Shown in pieces: positions 5,141-59,540 of a DNA stretch of 64,000 nt; the first letter of the stretch is position 1, and every line of letters begins with the position of its first letter. Source of the stretch: Candidatus Saccharimonadota bacterium (GTDB lineage Bacteria > Patescibacteriota > Saccharimonadia > Saccharimonadales > Saccharimonadaceae); contig JAATFU010000007.1 in NCBI GenBank assembly GCA_015655045.1, positions 124,001 to 188,000 of the forward strand, read 5' to 3'. The position numbers and the translations under genes are program-made. The notes below the pieces were generated by a model, which saw nothing but the letters and a program-made list of their open reading frames with translations, was not told where the DNA came from and searched no databases.

Positions 5141-5743
5141 ATGGCTGAGAATACACCTACAAATACTCGTCCAAATACCCGTTCACCACGTCGCGACAAC
5201 CGTGACCAAACACCACAAGAGCCAAAGCAATTTGAAGAGCTCGTCATTAATGTCGACCGTGTTTCGCGTGTTGTCAAAGGTGGACGACGCTTCCGATTCA
5301 AAGCACTTGTCGTTGTCGGTGACCGCAAAGCCAAGGTTGGCGTTGGTGTGGCCAAGGGTGCAGATGTTCAAGCGGCAATCGCCAAAGCAACCGATGTTGC
5401 CAAAAAGCATTTAATCATTATCCCTATCGTTAATGATACGTTGCCACATGATGCTGAAGTACGCTTCTCTGGTGCTCAAGTACTGATTAAACCAGCCGCA
5501 CCAGGTACCGGTATTATTGCCGGCGGTGTTGTGCGATCAATCATTGGGGTAACCGGGATTCGAAATATGCTTTCAAAGTCACTTGGTTCAACAAACAAGG
5601 TTAACATCGCCTATGCGACTATCGAAGCACTTCGTACCTTAGTGCCTCGTGATGAATGGGTGAATGCACCTGTCAAACAGGCTGCTCTAGCTAAAAAAGT
5701 AGCGAAGCCTATCGTGGCGTCTGCAGCTGAAGGAGAAAAATAA
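5141..5743 (+). CDS. rpsE: 30S ribosomal protein S5
   Basis: Start ATG 5141; VVKGGRRFRFKALVVVGD. Confidence 0.95.
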   Translation: MAENTPTNTRPNTRSPRRDNRDQTPQEPKQFEELVINVDRVSRVVKGGRRFRFKALVVVGDRKAKVGVGVAKGADVQAAIAKATDVAKKHLIIIPIVNDTLPHDAEVRFSGAQVLIKPAAPGTGIIAGGVVRSIIGVTGIRNMLSKSLGSTNKVNIAYATIEALRTLVPRDEWVNAPVKQAALAKKVAKPIVASAAEGEK

Positions 5744-6228
5744 TGACTAAGTATAACGAACTACAAATTAGTGCCAACAAAGATCGTAAACGTGTTGGTC
5801 GTGGTATCTCGGGTGGCCAAGGTAAGACCGCTGGTCGTGGTACTAAAGGGCAGGGCGCCCGTACAGGTAAAAAGCTTAATGCCATGTTCCAGGGTGGCCA
5901 ACGAGCACTTGTGAAGGCTGTACCAAAAGCTCGAGGCTTCAAGTCGCTCCGAGCACCCGCTCAAGTTGTCTATCTTGATCACTTGAATGCCTTTAAGGGT
6001 AAGGTAGTTGATAATGGTAGTTTGTTTGAGGCTGGCCTCATTACTTCACCATTTCAGGCGGTAAAAGTTATCCTTCGCGGTGAGTTAACTGAGAAGATCA
6101 CACTCAATGTCACGGGCGCAAGTAAAAGTGTCCAAGCGGCTGTCATCAAAGCTGGCGGTACATTTACAAAGACTGCAGTGCCTCTTAAGAAGAGTACTAA
6201 AGAAGCTGAAACTACCGACAAGAAATAG
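5743..6228 (+). CDS. rplO: 50S ribosomal protein L15
   Basis: KRVGRGISGGQGKTAGRGTKGQGAR. Confidence 0.97.
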   Translation: MTKYNELQISANKDRKRVGRGISGGQGKTAGRGTKGQGARTGKKLNAMFQGGQRALVKAVPKARGFKSLRAPAQVVYLDHLNAFKGKVVDNGSLFEAGLITSPFQAVKVILRGELTEKITLNVTGASKSVQAAVIKAGGTFTKTAVPLKKSTKEAETTDKK

Positions 6229-6248
6229 CGATACTTATTGCTCTTTTA

Positions 6249-6278
6249 AGACTCCTTGATTTTCAAGGAGTCTTTTGT
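6249..6278 (+). terminator. Intrinsic terminator after rplO
   Basis: AGACTCCTTGATTTTCAAGGAGTCTTTTG hairpin plus T run. Confidence 0.85.
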
Positions 6279-6391
6279 TGTACGCATCTTTATCAACACC
6301 AAAAACTCATTGGTTGTTTTTTGTGTGTCGAAAACTTCTATAGTATAATAGACAGTAATTGACTTAAAACCGAACGGGGCAGACTTTACTC

Positions 6392-7804
6392 ATGAACTGG
6401 AAAACCATCTTAAGATCGTTAAAGAATCGGGATATGCAGAAGCGTATCGGGATCGTCCTTGGTATCATTATTACCTATCGCTTTCTCGCGCATGTGCCTG
6501 TGCCCCTTGCCCAACCAACCCAATTAAAAGAGGTGATTAATAGTGTCGTCAATAGCACCGACTTTGGTGGTTTCCTAAACCTCCTTTCTGGTGGAGCACT
6601 AGCTAGCTTTTCTATTGTCCTCGTAGGTATGAGCCCATTCATTACTGCCTCAATTATTTCTCAACTACTGACAAAAGCGATTCCAAAGCTCGAGGAGCTT
6701 CATAAAGATGGCGAGTCTGGTCGTCGTAAGATCAATCAATGGACGCGTGTTATTGCCGTGCCTCTTGCGGTTGTCCAGTCAATTGCATTTATTTATATTC
6801 TACGTCAGACAGTACTGGCTGGTAATACTACGGTACTCGCCAGCTCCACACCAATTGATTGGATTGTTGCCGTGACAGCCATGGCAGCAGGTTCTATCTT
6901 CCTCATGTGGCTAGGAGAACTGATGACCGAGCAGGGGATTGGCAATGGTATTAGCCTTATTATCTTTGCTGGTATTATTAGCCAACTTCCAAGTACGCTG
7001 GCAACGCTCGGAACGTCCCTATTTGATACTTCCAATGGATCCCTGAGTGTCTTTGGTTGGTTTAATCTCCCAGTAAACCCGCTGTCATTCTGGGTTAGCC
7101 TCGGGCTCGCGCTAGTGTCACTACTCGTGTTATACATTCTTGTAAAAGTCAATGAAGCCCAACGGGTCATTACTATTAATTATGCCAAGCGAGTTCAAGG
7201 TAATAGCAGCTACGGTGGTGTGAAGAGTATCTTACCAGTCAAACTGATTGCGGCTGGGGTGATTCCGGTTATCTTTGCTGTAGCGTTTCTGTCGCTACCT
7301 GCTTTCCTTGGACAGGTTCTTAAGGCAACTGGCAATGCTTCATATCTTGATCTTGCGAATAATCTAATCCTTTGGTTCCAGGCACCAAGCCCTGGGGCCT
7401 TCACGGGATCAACACTTGAAGCTTTCATTTATCCAACTGCGTATTTCGCCCTTGTGATCGTCTTTACCTACTTCTATACAGGTATCGTGTTCAACTCAAA
7501 TGAAATTGCCGAGAATCTCCAAAAGCAGGGTGGCTTTATTGAGGGGGTACGCCCGGGTCTACAGACCGAGAAATACTTGAACCAGACAGTGAATCGTTTA
7601 ATTTTATTCGGATCAATCGTCCTCGGGCTGATCGCTATTATGCCATTTGCAGGTGAGTATATCCTTTATAACGTTGCGGGAGTATCAAATACCAATCTCT
7701 CAATTGGTGGTACGGGACTCTTGATTGTTGTCTCAGTCGGTCTTGAATCACTGCGTCAGATCAACTCACGCGCTCTGATGGTTACATACGACGACTATAA
7801 ATAG
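6392..7804 (+). CDS. secY: Preprotein translocase subunit SecY
   Basis: SecY family sequence, multi-TM, spc-operon position. Confidence 0.98.
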   Translation: MNWKTILRSLKNRDMQKRIGIVLGIIITYRFLAHVPVPLAQPTQLKEVINSVVNSTDFGGFLNLLSGGALASFSIVLVGMSPFITASIISQLLTKAIPKLEELHKDGESGRRKINQWTRVIAVPLAVVQSIAFIYILRQTVLAGNTTVLASSTPIDWIVAVTAMAAGSIFLMWLGELMTEQGIGNGISLIIFAGIISQLPSTLATLGTSLFDTSNGSLSVFGWFNLPVNPLSFWVSLGLALVSLLVLYILVKVNEAQRVITINYAKRVQGNSSYGGVKSILPVKLIAAGVIPVIFAVAFLSLPAFLGQVLKATGNASYLDLANNLILWFQAPSPGAFTGSTLEAFIYPTAYFALVIVFTYFYTGIVFNSNEIAENLQKQGGFIEGVRPGLQTEKYLNQTVNRLILFGSIVLGLIAIMPFAGEYILYNVAGVSNTNLSIGGTGLLIVVSVGLESLRQINSRALMVTYDDYK

Positions 7805-7907
7805 ACCCACCGTGAGTACTGCTCGTGTTTTTGTTCTAGCTCGCTTCCTGTTATAACTAAATGTGTATTCGTGAGAGTCACAAATACACTGACAGACGGG
7901 AAAGTTT

Positions 7908-8210
7908 ATGTCAAAACTAGAAGACCTTCTACTACAGCAGTATCATCGCCTCGAGGATATATTAGCGCAGGGAATGGCGGAAGGTGCCGTTGTACGCTCG
8001 ACTATCCTTCAGGAGTGGGCCGACGGACGTATACTGATTGATGCCACAACTACCGCATCACTCTATCCGGAAACGCAGCGGCCTAACCCTCGCGACCTAT
8101 ATGAGCTTCAGCTGATTCTGCGATCATTGGGTGAGGTTCGATTACGCCCAGCGATTGGCATTACTACAGACTCGGAGCCGTGCATCATTCTCTATCTTTC
8201 TAAAGATTAA
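7908..8210 (+). CDS. Hypothetical protein (100 aa)
   Basis: ORF between secY and infA. Confidence 0.6.
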   Translation: MSKLEDLLLQQYHRLEDILAQGMAEGAVVRSTILQEWADGRILIDATTTASLYPETQRPNPRDLYELQLILRSLGEVRLRPAIGITTDSEPCIILYLSKD

Positions 8211-8370
8211 TGATGTGGGTGAGGCTGACCCCCGTCTGTCCTCATCTCATATACTGTACTGTTAGAGTGTATGCGATGGGTCAATATTGACGAATGAGCA
8301 TAATCCGCTACAATAGGACTATAAATTTGTCTTCACGGTTGTCATGGACGTGAAATCTTTTCCCAAGTGG

Positions 8371-23898: not shown

Positions 23899-23973
23899 AG
23901 GGGCATAGTACAACGGTTAGTACATAGGTCTCCAAAACCTAGGATCGTGGTTCGATTCCACGTGCCCCTGCCA
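23899..23973 (+). tRNA. tRNA-Trp (CCA), 3' CCA encoded
   Basis: AGGGGCATAGTACAACGGTTAGTACATAGGTCTCCAAAACCTAGGATCGTGGTTCGATTCCACGTGCCCCTGCCA. Confidence 0.95.
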
Positions 23974-24130
23974 AACTGGAAATTATGAAATCAGAACTGT
24001 TAATCGGTTCTGATTTTTTATGCCAGCGTGACACATTTGAAACTTCATCTGTTATTTGGTTCTAACCTAAATTGTTTATGTTTGATAATACCTACGCATA
24101 ATCTTATACTGAAATAAACAAGGAGGTTAG

Positions 24131-24406
24131 ATGACAGAAATCATTACCATTAGTTACATTGAAGACGACCCTAAAGAAATAGAGCTTGTTGAAACAATCG
24201 GCGGTCGTATTCGCTCCTTAGGAGGTTTGGCTATTTTAACTCCTCTACGATTTGACGAAGATGGCCATGGCGGCGGAGAGACCCCAACAATTGATTTTCC
24301 TAATGGGAAAATACTTAGCGGAATGTCTAGCCTGAATCAACTGCTTGATAGCCAATATATTGAAGAGTACATACAGCCTGGTGTCGATATCGATATTCAA
24401 AATTAG
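24131..24406 (+). CDS. Hypothetical protein (91 aa), first ORF of accessory array
   Basis: ORF with upstream aaggagg. Confidence 0.6.
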   Translation: MTEIITISYIEDDPKEIELVETIGGRIRSLGGLAILTPLRFDEDGHGGGETPTIDFPNGKILSGMSSLNQLLDSQYIEEYIQPGVDIDIQN

Positions 24407-24462
24407 TACACTATTCATATATGGGAAACCTATCGATAGGTTATCCGGCTGCATCCTAAATC

Positions 24463-24541
24463 AACTTAGTTCTAATTTCGTACACGATGCTCTGCCAAGC
24501 ATAAGCACGATTATAAAAGTCTCCGAAATGGAGACTTTTTT
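24463..24541 (+). repeat. Array spacer R1 (class B left half, GCC junction 24494-24496, AAGCATAAGC right half and terminator)
   Basis: agttctaatttcgtacacgatgctctGCCAAGCATAAGCACGAttataaAAGTCTCCgaaatGGAGACTTTTTT. Confidence 0.8.
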
Positions 24542-24555
24542 GCTATGATTAATCT

Positions 24556-24924
24556 ATGACAAAAGAACGAATGAATAGAAAAAACTTTATATTCGTATTT
24601 ATTACAGGTTTCGTTGTAGCGAATCTCTTACTAGTTATATCTTATTTTATTGATCAGATTAATACTCCACTGGGATCAGTAGTAGTCAGTCTGATAGGTA
24701 TAGTATTAATTTTATTAGCAGTCTATCTTGCGGTAGTCTGGATATTAGCAACCATCAAGAGGCTGCATGACTTCGATGTTACGGGTTGGCTTGCAATTAT
24801 ATTCTTCGTTACACCGGCACTTATCATCCTTGCTTTCATACCAGGAACGAAAGGTCCTAATCAATTTGGTGAGAAACCCAGTCGCGGGTTAGATCTTCGT
24901 TCTGTTTTTCTGTGGCGTAGATAG
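24556..24924 (+). CDS. DUF805-like membrane protein
   Basis: Several TM segments, IKRLHDFDVTGWLAI and IPGTKGPNQFG. Confidence 0.8.
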   Translation: MTKERMNRKNFIFVFITGFVVANLLLVISYFIDQINTPLGSVVVSLIGIVLILLAVYLAVVWILATIKRLHDFDVTGWLAIIFFVTPALIILAFIPGTKGPNQFGEKPSRGLDLRSVFLWRR

Positions 24925-25038
24925 AATCTATCTCATCCATGTTGAAGTTTAATTCATCCCCAAAAGTTTGGTTCACGTACTCTTCGCCCTGCCAAGCATA
25001 AGCGCAATGAAGATAGTCTCCTTTTTGGAGGCTTTTTG
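24919..25038 (+). repeat. Array spacer R2 (class A left half)
   Basis: agatagaatctatctcatccatgttgaagtttaattcatccccaaaagtttggttcacgtactcttcgccctGCCAAGCATAAGCGCAATGA...AGTCTCCtttttGGAGGCTTTTTG. Confidence 0.85.
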
Positions 25039-25081
25039 TTTATGCTTGCTAAAGAATATACTTCTTAACATAATAGTCATC

Positions 25082-26011
25082 ATGATTTCACCAGACACGC
25101 CAACTCCATTTGAGGGCTTAAGCAAAGCAGGAAAAGTTTGGGCGCAAGAGAATGCGCTTGGAGAGTTAAAGGATGACATAAATAAGGATCTAAAGGGACT
25201 TTATCTTGCCGGAACTTTACTATGGCAAGCGCATAGGCGCCAAATGCTCGCAGAGATCCAAAGAAACGGTGGTGTTAAGAACCTAAGAAGGCCGTCATTT
25301 AGCGGAGGACTCAATATCGTTGAACTACAAAACGGACATTCTATACTTGCTGACAAGTTCTTAAAAACACCAAAACTTCTCGTAAGCAGTGAAGTGCTTT
25401 CAGCGCAACCCGCCAGCACCACTTTTACCCAAACACACGAGCTACGTGTTGCCTTTGGTGGATCTCTCCTGGGCGGTAGCATGCAACGATCTGATTATGA
25501 CATTAACGGGCAGATGTTTGCTTCAGTTGGCCTTGATCAAATCATCAATGATGACAGTTTCTTTCCCGAAGAAATAGGGATAACAGAAAGCATTACAACA
25601 GCGATGGAGCCTAATGAGAGTGAATCTCACTCAAGAGATCACGTAAATCGAGCTCACTACTCAATCGCTACATTAATCTGGGGGTCTAGTGCGGACGCAC
25701 ACTCTTCACCTATGCCGGATCCTTATACAGACTACTCGGCTTACCGCAAGTGGGCGTTACGTGGCAACCCGCAAATGGACATCACGTTTCAGGCACCAGT
25801 ATTTCAAAAAGACTATGAGCAGCCAACAAAAGCGACTGTCATTGATAAGTATGGTAAGTTTCAGCCGAATGCGGAGGTGGCAATTACATCACTAACAAGG
25901 TTCCGCTCTTTATTGGCATATTATGCAACAAAACAATGTCCTGACCTTTTTCCAGCAAATGAAGAAGAAAAGTTTGGTTACCTTGCAGAACCAATGCTTG
26001 AACTTGAATAG
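25082..26011 (+). CDS. Hypothetical protein (~309 aa), array cargo
   Basis: ORF start placed at 25082 (MISPDTPTPFEGL), past the spacer, instead of ORF-track 24968. Confidence 0.6.
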   Translation: MISPDTPTPFEGLSKAGKVWAQENALGELKDDINKDLKGLYLAGTLLWQAHRRQMLAEIQRNGGVKNLRRPSFSGGLNIVELQNGHSILADKFLKTPKLLVSSEVLSAQPASTTFTQTHELRVAFGGSLLGGSMQRSDYDINGQMFASVGLDQIINDDSFFPEEIGITESITTAMEPNESESHSRDHVNRAHYSIATLIWGSSADAHSSPMPDPYTDYSAYRKWALRGNPQMDITFQAPVFQKDYEQPTKATVIDKYGKFQPNAEVAITSLTRFRSLLAYYATKQCPDLFPANEEEKFGYLAEPMLELE

Positions 26012-26083
26012 GTTCTAAGCTCATCCACTAGCGGCCGCCAAGCATAAGGATGATGATGAAAGTCTCCATTTTGGAGGTTTTTT
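26011..26083 (+). repeat. Array spacer R3 (class C left half with AAGCATAAG right half)
   Basis: ggttctaagctcatccactagcggccGCCAAGCATAAGgatgatgatgaAAGTCTCCattttGGAGGTTTTTTG. Confidence 0.8.
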
Positions 26084-26128
26084 GTTTACGCTTGTCAGTA
26101 TTCACCTAGGGGTATAAAGTGATTATTA

Positions 26129-26542
26129 ATGGAACAAATCAAAAATAATTCAGTTCTAGTATATGAATCACCTAAAGATATGGATGATTTTGAGCGCAGT
26201 GAAGCCCAGCTAGAAGCCGCAAGAAATCGCGCAAAAAGTCTTATAGCCGATAATCGAGTGATGATAGAAGCACTTAAATCATATGGTCTCGGTCTTACAG
26301 AAGAACTAGACTTATCGACATTTATCGGACCCGTCGCCGTATATTTACAAGAAACCGAGGCTACAAATTTGAGAGATAGGCTTTTTCGCTGGTCTACTTA
26401 TTTCACACAGAATATCGATGATATCACCGTGTTTAGCGATTCGATTGAGAATGGAATATTAACTGATCCGAGTACTATGTTTGACGTAGTGGCAATGACG
26501 GAGACTCTATTAAGAGCTGCTGCAGGTGTTATCAAGAAGTAG
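26129..26542 (+). CDS. Hypothetical protein (137 aa), array cargo
   Basis: ORF between spacers R3 and R4. Confidence 0.6.
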   Translation: MEQIKNNSVLVYESPKDMDDFERSEAQLEAARNRAKSLIADNRVMIEALKSYGLGLTEELDLSTFIGPVAVYLQETEATNLRDRLFRWSTYFTQNIDDITVFSDSIENGILTDPSTMFDVVAMTETLLRAAAGVIKK

Positions 26543-26546
26543 TAAA

Positions 26547-26575
26547 AGTTCGAAGCTCATCCACTAGGGGCTGCC
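26547..26575 (+). repeat. Array spacer R4 (class C left half only)
   Basis: agttcgaagctcatccactaggggctGCC, then unrelated sequence. Confidence 0.8.
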
Positions 26576-26657
26576 AAAAAATCACAAAAGAAAAAGATGC
26601 GATTGATTCAATACAGTATCTTTCGCATCCTTATCTACTTACAATTATAGCTAAATG

Positions 26658-27038
26658 CTACAAAATATCAATAACCTTTAGAGATTTCGTCACGATCTTA
26701 AGATGCGTGATGCTATGGTTTTGTGTTTTAAGATATGCATTAATCCGAGCAACTGCTTTGTAATAATTCATGGGCGTTCGGTTAAGATCAATGACTATGT
26801 TTGACGACTGCTTACGTGCAGAACGTAAATTATTCTCCATTGTTTTCTTGCCATTACCGAGTGGACTCTTAATTTCCCATCGGACTCCGCCAATATCCAA
26901 ATCTGGAGTCTTTTGATGCCCTGGACGAAGAAAAATTACGTCCATCTTAAAGTGTTCCGCAAGTAGTAGTGCGACAGACATTTCATGATCCTTGGGATGA
27001 TCTTTCTGAGTGGTTTCGACTATTACTTTATATTTCAT
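26658..27038 (-). CDS. CdiA-C / PD-(D/E)XK-like nuclease domain protein (copy 1)
   Basis: TPDLDIGGVRWEIKSPLGNGKKTMENNLRSARKQSSNIVIDLNR. Confidence 0.65.
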   Translation of the reverse strand: MKYKVIVETTQKDHPKDHEMSVALLLAEHFKMDVIFLRPGHQKTPDLDIGGVRWEIKSPLGNGKKTMENNLRSARKQSSNIVIDLNRTPMNYYKAVARINAYLKTQNHSITHLKIVTKSLKVIDIL

Positions 27039-27069
27039 CTCTAGTTTATTATACTTTCTTGGGCCTTTC

Positions 27070-27192
27070 GCAGATAGAGTCTATCTCCTCTATATCGAAG
27101 TTTAACTCATCCCCAAAAGTTTGATTGACGTACGCTTCGCCCTGCCAAGCATAAGCACGATGACTGAAGTCTCCGAAATGGAGGCTTTTTGT
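27070..27192 (+). repeat. Array spacer R5 (class A left half)
   Basis: agatagagtctatctcctctatatcgaagtttaactcatccccaaaagtttgattgacgtacgcttcgccctGCCAAGCATAAGCACGATGA...AGTCTCCgaaatGGAGGCTTTTTG. Confidence 0.85.
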
Positions 27193-27204
27193 TATACTCA
27201 AGCT

Positions 27205-27708
27205 ATGAATTTAGAGTATCCATATCAATTAACAACCTTCATAGATATCGAACCAAAGATAGGTGAATCTGTTTATTATGGTGAACGAGGGTGGTTTCCG
27301 CAGATTGCGCTCAAACGGAGGTTTAAAGCAATGGGCATTTCAGAAGCAGAATTAATTGAAATGATATCCCATTACTGTAAATCGAGAACATCTTTTATTA
27401 TTCAAACTGGAAAGCTAGTGAAACCAGAACGTATGCCCGTGAGGGTATTGGAAGTAGACGACCTACACGGTTACTTGATTGATTTTCATAAAGATTTTAT
27501 ATCGTACATGGAGAAATCCATGTCATCAAGATATCCAGATCGCGATGGAGTAAATTACCAGCCGCATGTCACTGCAGAATTTAATGGACAAATGGTGATT
27601 GATGATAAGAAGTTTACCGACAAACTGTACGAAATAAATCGAGTATTTTTGCTTAAGGACGTAGATAACGAAAACTCTGTAGCATGCGAGAGCTTTGATC
27701 TTAATTAG
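27205..27708 (+). CDS. 2H phosphoesterase / 2'-5' RNA ligase-like protein, array cargo
   Basis: One recognisable HxT motif (YQPHVTAEFNG); start after TATACT-N6-ATG. Confidence 0.45.
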   Translation: MNLEYPYQLTTFIDIEPKIGESVYYGERGWFPQIALKRRFKAMGISEAELIEMISHYCKSRTSFIIQTGKLVKPERMPVRVLEVDDLHGYLIDFHKDFISYMEKSMSSRYPDRDGVNYQPHVTAEFNGQMVIDDKKFTDKLYEINRVFLLKDVDNENSVACESFDLN

Positions 27709-27715
27709 AATGAAA

Positions 27716-27744
27716 AGTTCTAAGCTCGTCCACTAGGGGCTGCC
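27716..27744 (+). repeat. Array spacer R6 (class C left half only)
   Basis: agttctaagctcgtccactaggggctGCC, then an unrelated terminator hairpin. Confidence 0.8.
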
Positions 27745-27753
27745 GAATAAAAT

Positions 27754-27779
27754 CGATCAGCTTCTGCTGGTCGTTTTTA
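27754..27779 (+). terminator. Intrinsic terminator in R6 right half
   Basis: CGATCAGCTTCTGCTGGTCGTTTTTA. Confidence 0.75.
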
Positions 27780-27830
27780 TTTGATTGGAGAATGTCGAGT
27801 TGAAGCAGGATCTGCGAGCGCAGCGAGTAA

Positions 27831-28012
27831 GATCGTGGTTCGAGCACGAGGAGCAACGAAAATGTGTTTACATATTTTCGTGTGACGATGTTGCTATCTT
27901 TAGATATTCCACGTGCCCCTGCCAAATCAGAAATCATTAAATTAGGACTGTTAATTGATTCTAACTTTTTATGGCAACGTGACACATTTTAATTTGTATC
28001 TGTTATTTTTGT
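27831..28012 (+). pseudogene. Decayed, interrupted duplicate of tRNA-Trp 3' end plus its downstream region (att-like)
   Basis: ATCGTGGTTCGA, ~65 nt insert, TTCCACGTGCCCCTGCCA, then sequence homologous to 23974-24060 (aactgttaat..., gcgtgacacatttt..., tctgttattt...). Confidence 0.8.
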
Positions 28013-28069
28013 TCTAGCTTAAAATAAAAGTGGCCGCCCCTTTCAGGGCGGACACTCTCGCTTGAAGTT

Positions 28070-28420
28070 TCAGGACGCTGGCTCCAGCTCTGACTCTTTC
28101 ACCGTCTGAGCTTCCTCGTTCTTCTGGTCTCGCTTGTAGTTCTTGTACACGAGATACACAGCCATCAGCGCGATGAGCACGAAGGCGAAGATGAGCATCG
28201 CTGTCAGAGAGTCGACAGATCGTTGCAGGTTGTCGATTGAACTCCGTTGGTTCAAGATGTAGTTCGGGTAATCCTTCGGGTTGATGCCGCAGATGCCGTC
28301 GTCTTGCGTGGCTCCAGGAGAGCTGTTGCAGACGGCAGCACTTGCACTCGCTGCGGGAATGAGAACCGCAGTAAAGGCGAGCGTGAGCGTTCCGAGCAGA
28401 ACTGCGATGATGCGTCGCAT
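28070..28420 (-). CDS. Predicted secreted/membrane hypothetical protein (116 aa), GC-rich
   Basis: Signal peptide MRRIIAVLLGTLTLAFTAVLIPAASASA, one TM; upstream SD-like GGAAGGAAAG. Confidence 0.65.
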   Translation of the reverse strand: MRRIIAVLLGTLTLAFTAVLIPAASASAAVCNSSPGATQDDGICGINPKDYPNYILNQRSSIDNLQRSVDSLTAMLIFAFVLIALMAVYLVYKNYKRDQKNEEAQTVKESELEPAS

Positions 28421-28570
28421 CGTCTTTCCTTCCAGTAGTGAGAGTTACGAAACTGAGAACGACAAGATGAGGCATCTTATCACACTCAATCTCGCACTTG
28501 CTCTATCAATTTGTAATACTTATTATAACACCAGAAGTTATGTTTGTATATTAAGTAGTTTACGGTCACT

Positions 28571-28654
28571 AAATTAATTTGGTTCTAACTTCGTTTATAA
28601 TGCCCTGCCACGCATAAGCGCAATAAAATTAGTCTCCGATTCGGAGGCTTCTTG
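28571..28654 (+). repeat. Array spacer R7 (class B left half)
   Basis: aaattaatttggttctaacttcgtttataatgccctGCCACGCATAAGCGCAATaaaattAGTCTCCgattcGGAGGCTTCTTG. Confidence 0.8.
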
Positions 28655-28668
28655 TTATAATTGACTGA

Positions 28669-29079
28669 ATGACTAAAGTGGTAATTGAAAAAGAACTTGG
28701 TGCGACACCTACAATCATCGAAAGTGAGGTTGTTGATATTCTTGTACAAAACGGCATTGTAAGGGAACATGTTTTATTTTTAAAGCCAAACCGTGTAATT
28801 GGCTCAAAAACACCAGATATACAGATAGATCACGATGTAAAATGGGAAATAAAGTCTATCACTGTCGATGGAAAATATACCCTTGCACATGCGCTTCGGC
28901 AAGGTCTACTGCAATCTAAAAACCTCATTATCGATATACGTCGCTTAAGGCCAGGTATGCAAGATAAGTATAGGCAAAAAATCAATAAAGAATTCCTTAT
29001 GACTAAATCATGGCAGTCTGCAGTGATAGTATTAAAGGCCCATAAAGGTAATGTTTCATTATTGACTCTGGAGAAATAA
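28669..29079 (+). CDS. CdiA-C / PD-(D/E)XK-like nuclease domain protein (copy 2)
   Basis: TPDIQIDHDVKWEIKSITVDGKYTLAHALRQGLLQSKNLIIDIRR; leaderless TATAAT-N7-ATG. Confidence 0.65.
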   Translation: MTKVVIEKELGATPTIIESEVVDILVQNGIVREHVLFLKPNRVIGSKTPDIQIDHDVKWEIKSITVDGKYTLAHALRQGLLQSKNLIIDIRRLRPGMQDKYRQKINKEFLMTKSWQSAVIVLKAHKGNVSLLTLEK

Positions 29080-29203
29080 TTTGCTACTATAAATTGTAAA
29101 GAGACGTCGCTCCTGCTGGATAGCTCGAGCCGCGTCTCTTTTTTTGAGCATATCTGTTATTTTAAAGACTATTCATAAATGACACCTAACTCCACTACCT
29201 TGA

Positions 29204-29260
29204 GGGTTAATCATTCCCAAAAGTTTGGTTCACGTACTCTACGCCATGCCAAACAGAACG
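29204..29260 (+). repeat. Array spacer R8 (class A core, inside minus-strand small ORF)
   Basis: ttcccaaaagtttggttcacgtactctacgccatGCCA. Confidence 0.75.
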
Positions 29261-29335
29261 AAGAGCAATTTCAAGCTCTTTTTTTGTTTTACGACCTCTG
29301 TTATTTTCTTCGTCATTTACGGTTTGGTTATTCAT
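29207..29335 (-). CDS. Small protein (42 aa) related to the reverse translation of class A spacers
   Basis: MNNQTVNDEENNRGRKTKKELEIALRSVWHGVEYVNQTFGND*; SD AGGAGG 7 nt upstream. Confidence 0.6.
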   Translation of the reverse strand: MNNQTVNDEENNRGRKTKKELEIALRSVWHGVEYVNQTFGND

Positions 29336-29400
29336 TTTCTATCCTCCTATTATTTCCTTAGTTTTTAATGTTTTCTGAGCCACCACTGCAGCAAATTTTA

Positions 29401-29422
29401 TCTTATCATCTTGATGATAAGA
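29401..29422. promoter_or_regulatory. Perfect palindrome, likely toxin-antitoxin operator
   Basis: TCTTATCATCTTGATGATAAGA, just upstream of -10 TATTAT and the antitoxin start. Confidence 0.75.
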
Positions 29423-29458
29423 TGCACTTGTGCTATTATGAACATAAGGAGAAATAAT

Positions 29459-29677
29459 ATGCGTACCACAATCACACTTAATGACAAATTGTTCCGTGCC
29501 CTAAAGATCCGCGCTGCCGAAACTGACGAAACTATCAGCAGTATCGTGGAAGACGCCGTTAAGTATCAGCTACTCGAAGATTTAGAGGATATCGAAATAG
29601 CTAAAAAGCGTCAAAATGAGCCTACTCTTTCTTTCGAATCACTCGTCACAACGTTAAAGGCCGAGGGACTCTTGTAA
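29459..29677 (+). CDS. Antitoxin (ribbon-helix-helix/RelB-like)
   Basis: MRTTITLNDKLFRALKIRAAETDETISSIVEDAVKYQL; next to a RelE-like ORF. Confidence 0.8.
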   Translation: MRTTITLNDKLFRALKIRAAETDETISSIVEDAVKYQLLEDLEDIEIAKKRQNEPTLSFESLVTTLKAEGLL

Positions 29678-29699
29678 GAGTTCTTCGATTAGGCCAGAT

Positions 29700-29960
29700 A
29701 TGTATCAAATCATATACGTTAAGCCCGTCGAGAAAGAACTACGTAAACTCGACGCCTCCATTCGTAAAGCAATCGTAAAAAAGATTCTAGCACTTGCCGA
29801 AACACCTAGGCCACAAGGAGTGACTCAACTCCATGGATCGAATAACCTTTACCGTATTCGTCATGCTGACTACCGGGTAGTGTACGAAATTCGTGATAGT
29901 AATCTAATTGTGCTTGTTATTAAAGTTGCTCATCGACGCGAAGTGTATCGAGATTTCTAA
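29700..29960 (+). CDS. RelE/ParE-family toxin
   Basis: KELRKLDASIRKAIVKKI...YRIRHADYRVVYEIRDSNLIVLVIKVAHRREVYRDF. Confidence 0.88.
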   Translation: MYQIIYVKPVEKELRKLDASIRKAIVKKILALAETPRPQGVTQLHGSNNLYRIRHADYRVVYEIRDSNLIVLVIKVAHRREVYRDF

Positions 29961-29981
29961 ACTTTACGATCATTCATCTAT

Positions 29982-30075
29982 CTCGAAGCTCATAGATAGA
30001 ATTTATTTCCTCTATATCGAAATTTTAACTCATCTCCAAAGTTTGATTCTAGAACTCTTTGCCCTGCTAGAGCTT
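29982..30075 (+). repeat. Array spacer R9 (degenerate class A left half)
   Basis: tcgaagctcatagatagaatttatttcctctatatcgaaattttaactcatctccaaagtttgattctagaactctttgccctgc. Confidence 0.7.
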
Positions 30076-41278: not shown

Positions 41279-41423
41279 TAACCGCGGGGAGGTAGGGATG
41301 CATCTATTCGCACCCCGCCTCCCCAAAGCTACTCTCTTTTGGAATAGGTATCTCTATCGCCACTGCCTTCGGGCAGTGGTTTTCCAATTCTCCGTGTTAT
41401 ACTAAGCGGGAACATTAAACAAT

Positions 41424-41526
41424 TCGTATCAAGAGTGCAGCGAGAGAACTAGCTCAATGACCTGCCGGCAACCAGCATTCTTTGTAATGGTGCCTCCTCT
41501 AGCCCCGCGCGGGGAAAGATAAGTCA
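41424..41526 (+). promoter_or_regulatory. SAM-clan riboswitch (SAM-I / SAM-I/IV type)
   Basis: TATCAAGAG...GAGAGAACTAGCTCAATGACCTGCCGGCAACC...GGTGC..TCC...GATAAG upstream of metK. Confidence 0.88.
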
Positions 41527-59134: not shown

Positions 59135-59357
59135 TAATTATCCTCTCTCGCTTCATCGACCATCGACAAAACGACCCTTTATCAACCAACAACCATGCAC
59201 AGCGCATAGGTGATCAATAAGTATCTTATTATATATATCACGACATCATTTGTCAATCTGTGCTAGATGTAGCACCAGGGGTGCTTCTTACTCGCTAGAG
59301 GCAGGGAGTCGTGCATTATTGACAACAGCCACCTCCCTTTGGTATACTCCTGCTAGA

Positions 59358-59470
59358 CATCACCAAAGACAGTAGCCGTGGAAACACTTAATTTGCTACC
59401 GAGGATCATGTAACACATACATTTTTCGATAGAGTCTTTGGCAGTGCGAGGTCCAAAGACTTTTTCTTTT
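59358..59470 (+). promoter_or_regulatory. L10 leader with attenuator terminator
   Basis: ACCAAAGACAGTAG...TTAATTTGCTACCGAGGAT (L10-leader-like), then GTCTTTGGcagtgcgaggtCCAAAGACTTTTTCTTTT. Confidence 0.8.
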
Positions 59471-59540
59471 GTCCACGCGTGCCGTCTGGTTCTTTCACAA
59501 TTTGGTCGGATATACCTAACTACAACTAAAGGAGATTTTT

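Follow-up and report, generated by a model that had tools for sequence, protein, structure and literature searches.

Cassette junctions behind tRNA-Trp in a Saccharimonadaceae bacterium: probable attachment sites of arrays built by large serine recombinases

In the genome of Candidatus Saccharimonadota bacterium (assembly GCA_015655045.1, family Saccharimonadaceae), a row of short sequences behind a tRNA-Trp gene raises the question of why unrelated DNA should repeatedly meet at one trinucleotide. The row is located in contig JAATFU010000007.1, positions 124,001 to 188,000, a stretch of 64,000 nucleotides which is referred to as the window and whose own numbering is used below. A first-pass annotation had described eight spacers between positions 24463 and 29260, with left and right halves shuffled around a fixed GCC, and had proposed a recombination crossover at this point. 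According to the comparisons reported here, the junctions are probably the attachment sites of cassette arrays that are built by large serine recombinases (LSRs) and anchored on the CCA ends of tRNA genes.

All eight GCC junctions are present (R1 to R8, with the GCC at positions 24494, 24991, 26037, 26573, 27144, 27742, 28607, and 29248) and lie inside the annotated interval, while the array itself extends further, starting at the tRNA-Trp gene, which ends at 23973, and including a ninth, degenerate site that ends at 30068. The nine junctions in the window share one orientation, and their row begins at the 3′ CCA end of tRNA-Trp. The assignment of the left halves to class A (R2, R5, and R8), class B (R1 and R7), or class C (R3, R4, and R6) was correct, as was the description of the right sides, which read A(A/C)GCATAAG at R1, R2, R3, R5, and R7 and are unrelated at R4, R6, and R8, with hairpins following the junctions. 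The left halves generally run into (T)GCC as described, the exception being R3, which reads CCGCC. The separation of the three classes into distinct sequences has to be given up: all three fit a single ungapped alignment, AAAGTTYKAA..nnCGTnCAnTAnGCnCTGCC(A), and represent one half-site, GTTY...CGTnCAnTAnGCnCTGCC, in which GTTY is located 28 bp from the last C. The individual sites, the first eight of which are designated P-type half-sites, are the following.

R1, 24469 to 24496, plus strand: P-type half-site of class B, ending in GCC, with the next base being the start of the following cassette (alignment and weight matrix).
R2, 24966 to 24993, plus strand: P-type half-site of class A (alignment and weight matrix).
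R3, 26012 to 26039, plus strand: P-type half-site of class C (alignment and weight matrix).
R4, 26548 to 26575, plus strand: P-type half-site of class C, right side AAAAAATCAC (alignment and weight matrix).
R5, 27119 to 27146, plus strand: P-type half-site of class A (alignment and weight matrix).
R6, 27717 to 27744, plus strand: P-type half-site of class C, distal end of the first array; the right side is the native sequence formerly located directly behind tRNA-Trp (unoccupied site in genome G034).
R7, 28582 to 28609, plus strand: P-type half-site of class B (alignment and weight matrix).
R8, 29223 to 29250, plus strand: P-type half-site of class A, followed on the right by AAACAGAACG, which is similar to the arm found in tRNA-Trp LSRs of the L107/L104 group.
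R9, 30041 to 30068, plus strand: degenerate half-site of class A, ending in GCT, 22.6 bits (weight matrix).

Conservation is high across the 31 bp to the left of the seam and drops sharply at NCC/A, the right side (AAGCATAAGC) being weakly conserved; the right halves are diverse, in agreement with what had been noted at R4, R6, and R8. CC is the most conserved dinucleotide at the seam, and the breakpoints are located there. When the left halves are read on the minus strand (WQPLVDELR, WQGILDEVR), conservation peaks at the second codon positions, a pattern that fits an origin of the left halves in the 3′ coding ends of LSR genes and is meant here as a statement on origin rather than on translation. 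Class A was first noted as a B-type site; this assignment was dropped, as AAAAGTTTG is present at 28 bp in every intact class A site and GTTC at 23 bp is not conserved. Across R8, an open reading frame (ORF) of 42 codons with AGGAGG upstream (29223 to 29360, minus strand) begins in the right half and stops in the left half; it reads MNNQTVNDEENNRGRK...SVWHGVEYVNQTFGND and resembles the LSR C-termini of the L107/L168 group.

The gene on which the row is anchored provides the second half of the comparison.

tRNA-Trp, 23899 to 23973, plus strand: array anchor (ARAGORN, Rfam).

Its 3′ end reads GGTTCGATTCCACGTGCCCCTGCCA, and the GCC of the junctions corresponds to the discriminator base plus the CC of the tRNA CCA end, i.e., the halves join at NCC(A). 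Positions 23950 to 23972 (GTTCGATTCCACGTGCCCCTGCC) within the gene constitute a B-type half-site, with GTTC located 23 bp from the last C, as it is in 151 of 151 distinct CCA-ending tRNA genes of the loci compared. In most cassette half-sites, the distance from GTTY to the last C is 28 bp, a count which, as far as it rests on the weight matrix described below, is partly given by construction, since 28-bp sites had been used to seed it; selections made by the right half or by the acceptor end are unbiased in this respect. When sites are selected solely on their right half, the same 5-bp offset is seen (26 versus 21 bp, with the first C of CCA as the end point). For LSR elements on many tRNAs, candidates were picked without the matrix, solely by similarity to the acceptor end, and GTTY was found at 28 bp 20 times compared to a mean of 3.3 at other distances (p about 4e-10), with some of the matches representing Trp or near-duplicate loci. 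In serine integrases and LSRs, the attP and attB half-sites differ in the position of the zinc-domain motif, which is shifted by 5 bp (PMC3783163), and this shift is found here in the left half (28 versus 23 bp), the right half being devoid of a clear outer motif. Furthermore, the ends of the P halves match their own tRNA, with CTGCC for Trp, CCCCACC for Met, GCACC for Gly, and TACY for Arg. The genome of the window also contains small arrays behind tRNA-Gly and tRNA-Arg (locus L018, G000 contig C8, minus strand, 5600 to 8300), the half-sites of which fit the respective acceptor ends.

For the distribution of the half-site, a weight matrix was built from 23 half-sites with 28-bp spacing and applied with a cut-off of 14 bits to 573 kb of DNA from the loci compared, where it recognized 106 distinct sites above the cut-off and zero in shuffled DNA. 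A 29-base pattern matched 33 of 388 genomes of the same family (about 110 matches), while the reversed control gave a single match; chance repeats were ruled out on the basis of these two controls. As the repeats are approximately 30 bp long and of high identity, they could recombine with one another, and the half-site would then be a dispersed repeat promoting unequal exchange and gene shuffling. We regard such homologous recombination as highly unlikely, because the breakpoints are located at NCC rather than throughout the repeat, anchoring on the tRNA and the strand are strict, the half-sites differ strongly between tRNA types, and LSR elements use identical ends.

The arrays of relatives (designated by G for genomes and L for loci) reveal how the units are exchanged. 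A 363-bp cassette is common to G022 and G018 with 98% identity, with different neighbors on both sides and with similarity ending at GCC(A). In G034, the sequence following R6 in the window (27745 to 27923) is located directly behind tRNA-Trp, with 157 of 179 positions being identical, and the 3.8-kb stretch from the tRNA to R6 is therefore an insertion relative to the arrangement in G034. At junctions of neighboring cassettes, a permutation test revealed no dependence between left and right classes within the limits of its power (p = 0.14), and inside single cassettes the correlation between right and left halves was not significant. The two checks that had been proposed, namely, disagreement between the halves and mapping of the junctions in relatives, thus gave no detectable covariation and a breakpoint at GCC(A), and together with the unoccupied site they support the suggested crossover at the shared trinucleotide. 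The picture of spacers shuffled pairwise is less apt, as the units are cassette ends, for which accretion is the better description. What had been overlooked is that the GCC is part of the tRNA CCA end, that the left half is the 3′ attachment half-site of a cassette, and that the halves are mixed because at every junction one cassette stops and its successor begins. Between the two arrays of the window lies the native sequence.

Native tRNA-Trp downstream module, 27745 to 27923, plus strand: contains a terminator and ends in a second tRNA 3′-end copy (27906 to 27923), the second docking site.

The second array of the window sits behind this tRNA 3′-end copy, and cassette-type starts also follow the copy in G034 and G010. 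The module itself contains an upstream stretch that repeats GATCGTGGTTCGA and a hairpin (AACGAAAATGTGTTTACATATTTTCGT) inserted at the place of the T-loop, which are kept in G034 and G010.

LSRs with domain PF07508 were found in 70 of 100 relatives, and in many of these the LSR reading frame enters the tRNA gene in antisense orientation, resulting in a protein end of the form W(CCA)...[DE]SN(T-loop). In G007 and G026, an LSR (PF00239, PF07508, and PF13408) adjoins tRNA-Trp, its last codons are derived from the antisense strand of the tRNA, and the element ends in a cassette-type P half. In G210, tRNA-Trp is followed by an LSR, a REP_ORF2-G2P replication gene, a class C half, and 11 more cassettes, nearly all of class C. 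An LSR gene whose product combines a resolvase, a recombinase, and a zinc-ribbon domain is located inside the element in G007, G026, G210, and G004, with the zinc-ribbon match of the G210 protein being just under the cut-off. An attP at the integrase gene and a rebuilt target, as in other LSR elements, are evident from the ORF running into the tRNA antisense strand and from the comparison of unoccupied and occupied sites. The replication protein of the G210 element (L274:1710-2513) suggests a rolling-circle replicon or a filamentous-phage-like element as the autonomous partner; viral contigs yielded two DNA matches and no LSR relatives. In G004 (L277:2930-2990), the LSR element is located behind a partial tRNA-Met-like 3′ half that is not recognized as a tRNA gene, a displaced copy serving as target. 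In the open-access literature searched, no report of LSR cassette arrays or of integrons in Saccharibacteria was found. Serine-family integrases were stated in the description of Islander not to be known to target tRNA genes (PMC4383910), which is contradicted by the predicted LSR genes ending inside many tRNA genes.

The contents of the individual cassettes in the window are as follows (aa, amino acids).

Cassette 1, 23974 to 24496, plus strand: 91-aa ORF of unknown function (24131 to 24406).
Cassette 2, 24497 to 24993, plus strand: DUF805 membrane protein (24556 to 24924).
Cassette 3, 24994 to 26039, plus strand: unknown 309-aa protein (25082 to 26011).
Cassette 4, 26040 to 26575, plus strand: unknown 137-aa protein (26129 to 26542).
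Cassette 5, 26576 to 27146, plus strand: CdiA_C-domain protein (26658 to 27038, minus strand).
Cassette 6, 27147 to 27744, plus strand: 167-aa protein (27205 to 27708), with relatives of 57 to 60% identity in the G210 and G117 arrays.
Cassette 7, the first of the second array, 27924 to 28609, plus strand: 116-aa ORF (28070 to 28420, minus strand).
Cassette 8, 28610 to 29250, plus strand: CdiA_C-domain protein (28669 to 29079).
Cassette 9, 29251 to 30068, plus strand: pair of a ribbon-helix-helix antitoxin-like protein (29459 to 29677) and a ParE-family toxin (29700 to 29960).

Altogether, 137 unique cassettes were mapped, which have a median length of 679 bp, mostly contain one ORF, and are covered by ORFs to 74%. 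The longest ORF is encoded in the forward direction in 110 cases and in reverse in 22, with none present in 5, and all cassette sites are on the tRNA strand. A terminator-like hairpin at the start was found in 98 of the 137 cassettes, compared to 41 in shuffles, and a T-run followed by GTTATRAT in 21, compared to 2.7 in shuffles; a subset of the cassettes clearly has a promoter-like start as judged from these motifs. In about 14 of 36 measurable cassettes, the −10 box ends 6 to 7 bp ahead of the ATG, a spacing that suggests leaderless mRNAs in some of them. Among 150 cargo proteins, NUDIX proteins are the most common (8 of 150), followed by ABC, CdiA_C, AAA/OLD-like, GNAT, HAD, and others. Elsewhere in the window, Rfam matches correspond to an S-adenosylmethionine (SAM) riboswitch (41423 to 41525) and an L10 leader (59345 to 59475), both ordinary.

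The main rival to LSR-built cassette arrays is that of ordinary tandem islands, i.e., complete LSR elements that were serially inserted at the tRNA and internally deleted to scars, leaving graveyards without mobilization of cassettes. Some right halves are indeed LSR arms without the gene, as at R8 and at L103 9501 in G022, which corresponds to the LSR arm of G210, and several arrays have LSR elements on the side of the tRNA. The compactness of the cassettes, their single ORF, the frequent terminator, and the occasional −10 box near the junction are not what scars would be expected to show; moreover, most cassette starts lack an LSR remnant, and a one-gene cassette is intact in two species with different neighbors. 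Tandem islands account for R8 and for the arm of G210 type in G022 and leave the compact shared cassettes unexplained, and we consider them an improbable explanation of the arrays as a whole.

With one-gene cassettes in a single orientation and a recombination site at the 3′ end, found across the 137 cassettes, the arrays follow the logic of integrons, and a true integron or a cluster of attC sites lacking integron integrases (CALIN) would involve an IntI-type tyrosine recombinase acting on folded single-stranded attC. This is barely credible here: the sole PF00589 tyrosine recombinase in the genome is XerC/XerD-like and reaches 136 bits with TIGR02249 against a cut-off of 265; the attC box GTTRRRY is present in 4 of 137 cassettes, which is below the shuffled value (7.6), with paired boxes in 1; the half-sites fold no better than shuffled sequences; and the sites follow tRNA ends. 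With no IntI, no attC boxes, and no excess folding, the attC reading was rejected. The Xer recombinase encoded in the genome might instead shuffle modules between dif-like sites, and the toxin-antitoxin cargo resembles that of known dif modules. The sites are, however, asymmetric and one-sided without paired inverted arms, their NCC ends follow the local tRNA acceptor end, and the Xer gene is unlinked to the arrays, whereas LSR genes are located inside them, making a Xer-based mechanism very unlikely; pdif modules were rejected for want of dif-like inverted XerC/XerD arms and of linkage. The array thus works like an integron without IntI and attC and is not filed as one.

How LSR-built arrays might grow can be outlined as follows. 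A cassette would circularize, with its own 3′ P half (GTTY at 28 bp, ending in NCC) joined to its own start to form attP. An LSR acting in trans would recombine this circle with the tRNA end, i.e., the B half with GTTC at 23 bp and NCC, presumably within a CC core. The tRNA would be rebuilt, with the start of the cassette directly after CCA and the P half joined to the sequence previously downstream of the tRNA. Repeated docking at the tRNA-proximal end would yield a tRNA followed by cassette after cassette, each seam at NCC pairing halves of two different cassettes. The terminator hairpin at the start of many cassettes and the −10 box of some would allow the tRNA transcript to end and each gene to be expressed alone. 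On balance, we lean toward the wider proposal of a serine-recombinase counterpart of the integron, in which trans-acting LSRs with relaxed right-half recognition would stack self-expressing one-gene cassettes on the conserved T-loop and CCA ends of tRNAs, such that any tRNA gene might serve as a platform throughout the family.

Several points, apart from the two limits on the offset counts given above, weigh against LSR-built arrays. Neither of the two LSRs encoded in the genome of the window is of the tRNA-Trp kind, and a query with the G210 LSR finds nothing there. Because the genome lacks a cognate tRNA-Trp LSR, the array of the window is an orphan. The common AAGCATAAG arm was not found with any LSR. 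According to the textbook view, LSRs do not recombine attP with attL, and repeated docking at a tRNA-attL therefore requires relaxed right-half recognition, at which the weak conservation to the right of the core may hint. Finally, the expectation that distal, i.e., older, sites should be more decayed was only weakly borne out (mean rho −0.17, p = 0.10, not significant).

Among known systems, the staphylococcal cassette chromosome (SCC, SCCmec) is the closest in logic: Ccr LSRs insert DNA into the 3′ end of rlmH, which is restored in the process, and tandem accretion leaves an attachment repeat at each seam. An LSR, a conserved gene whose 3′ end takes up the insertion and is rebuilt, and tandem growth are common to both systems, whereas the arrays described here target tRNA CCA ends and comprise up to a dozen mostly one-gene units without recombinase. 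The LSRs match the Ccr models weakly (57 to 79 bits against cut-offs of 700 to 900), and neither Ccr family membership nor rlmH links them to SCC. Like integrons, the arrays consist of compact cassettes that mostly hold a single gene, share one orientation, and carry the recombination site at the 3′ end; the cargo is diverse, and a recombinase may or may not be linked. They differ in that the linked recombinases are serine enzymes, the P and B half-sites are double-stranded rather than folded attC, a tRNA takes the place of attI, and the cassettes bring a terminator and, in part, a −10 box of their own. Islander-type tRNA islands with tyrosine integrases likewise insert at tRNA 3′ ends and keep the gene intact, but here it is LSR genes that end inside many tRNA genes. 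The pdif modules are also small, often of the toxin-antitoxin type, and shuffled at short sites, yet the sites described here copy tRNA ends and have no dif-like inverted arms.

Integrons are the standard platform for gene capture and employ one tyrosine recombinase and folded DNA. If the proposed reading is true, gene-capture arrays arose more than once, the same logic being realized here by a serine enzyme and with a tRNA as the anchor. Bacteria with small genomes, which offer little room for islands, would thereby gain toxins, antitoxins, NUDIX hydrolases, transporters, and possible defense genes singly. The family would also provide new LSRs with a natural target motif common to nearly all tRNA genes, and the discrimination between attP and attB by LSRs as well as the productivity of attP × attL would become directly testable in such arrays.

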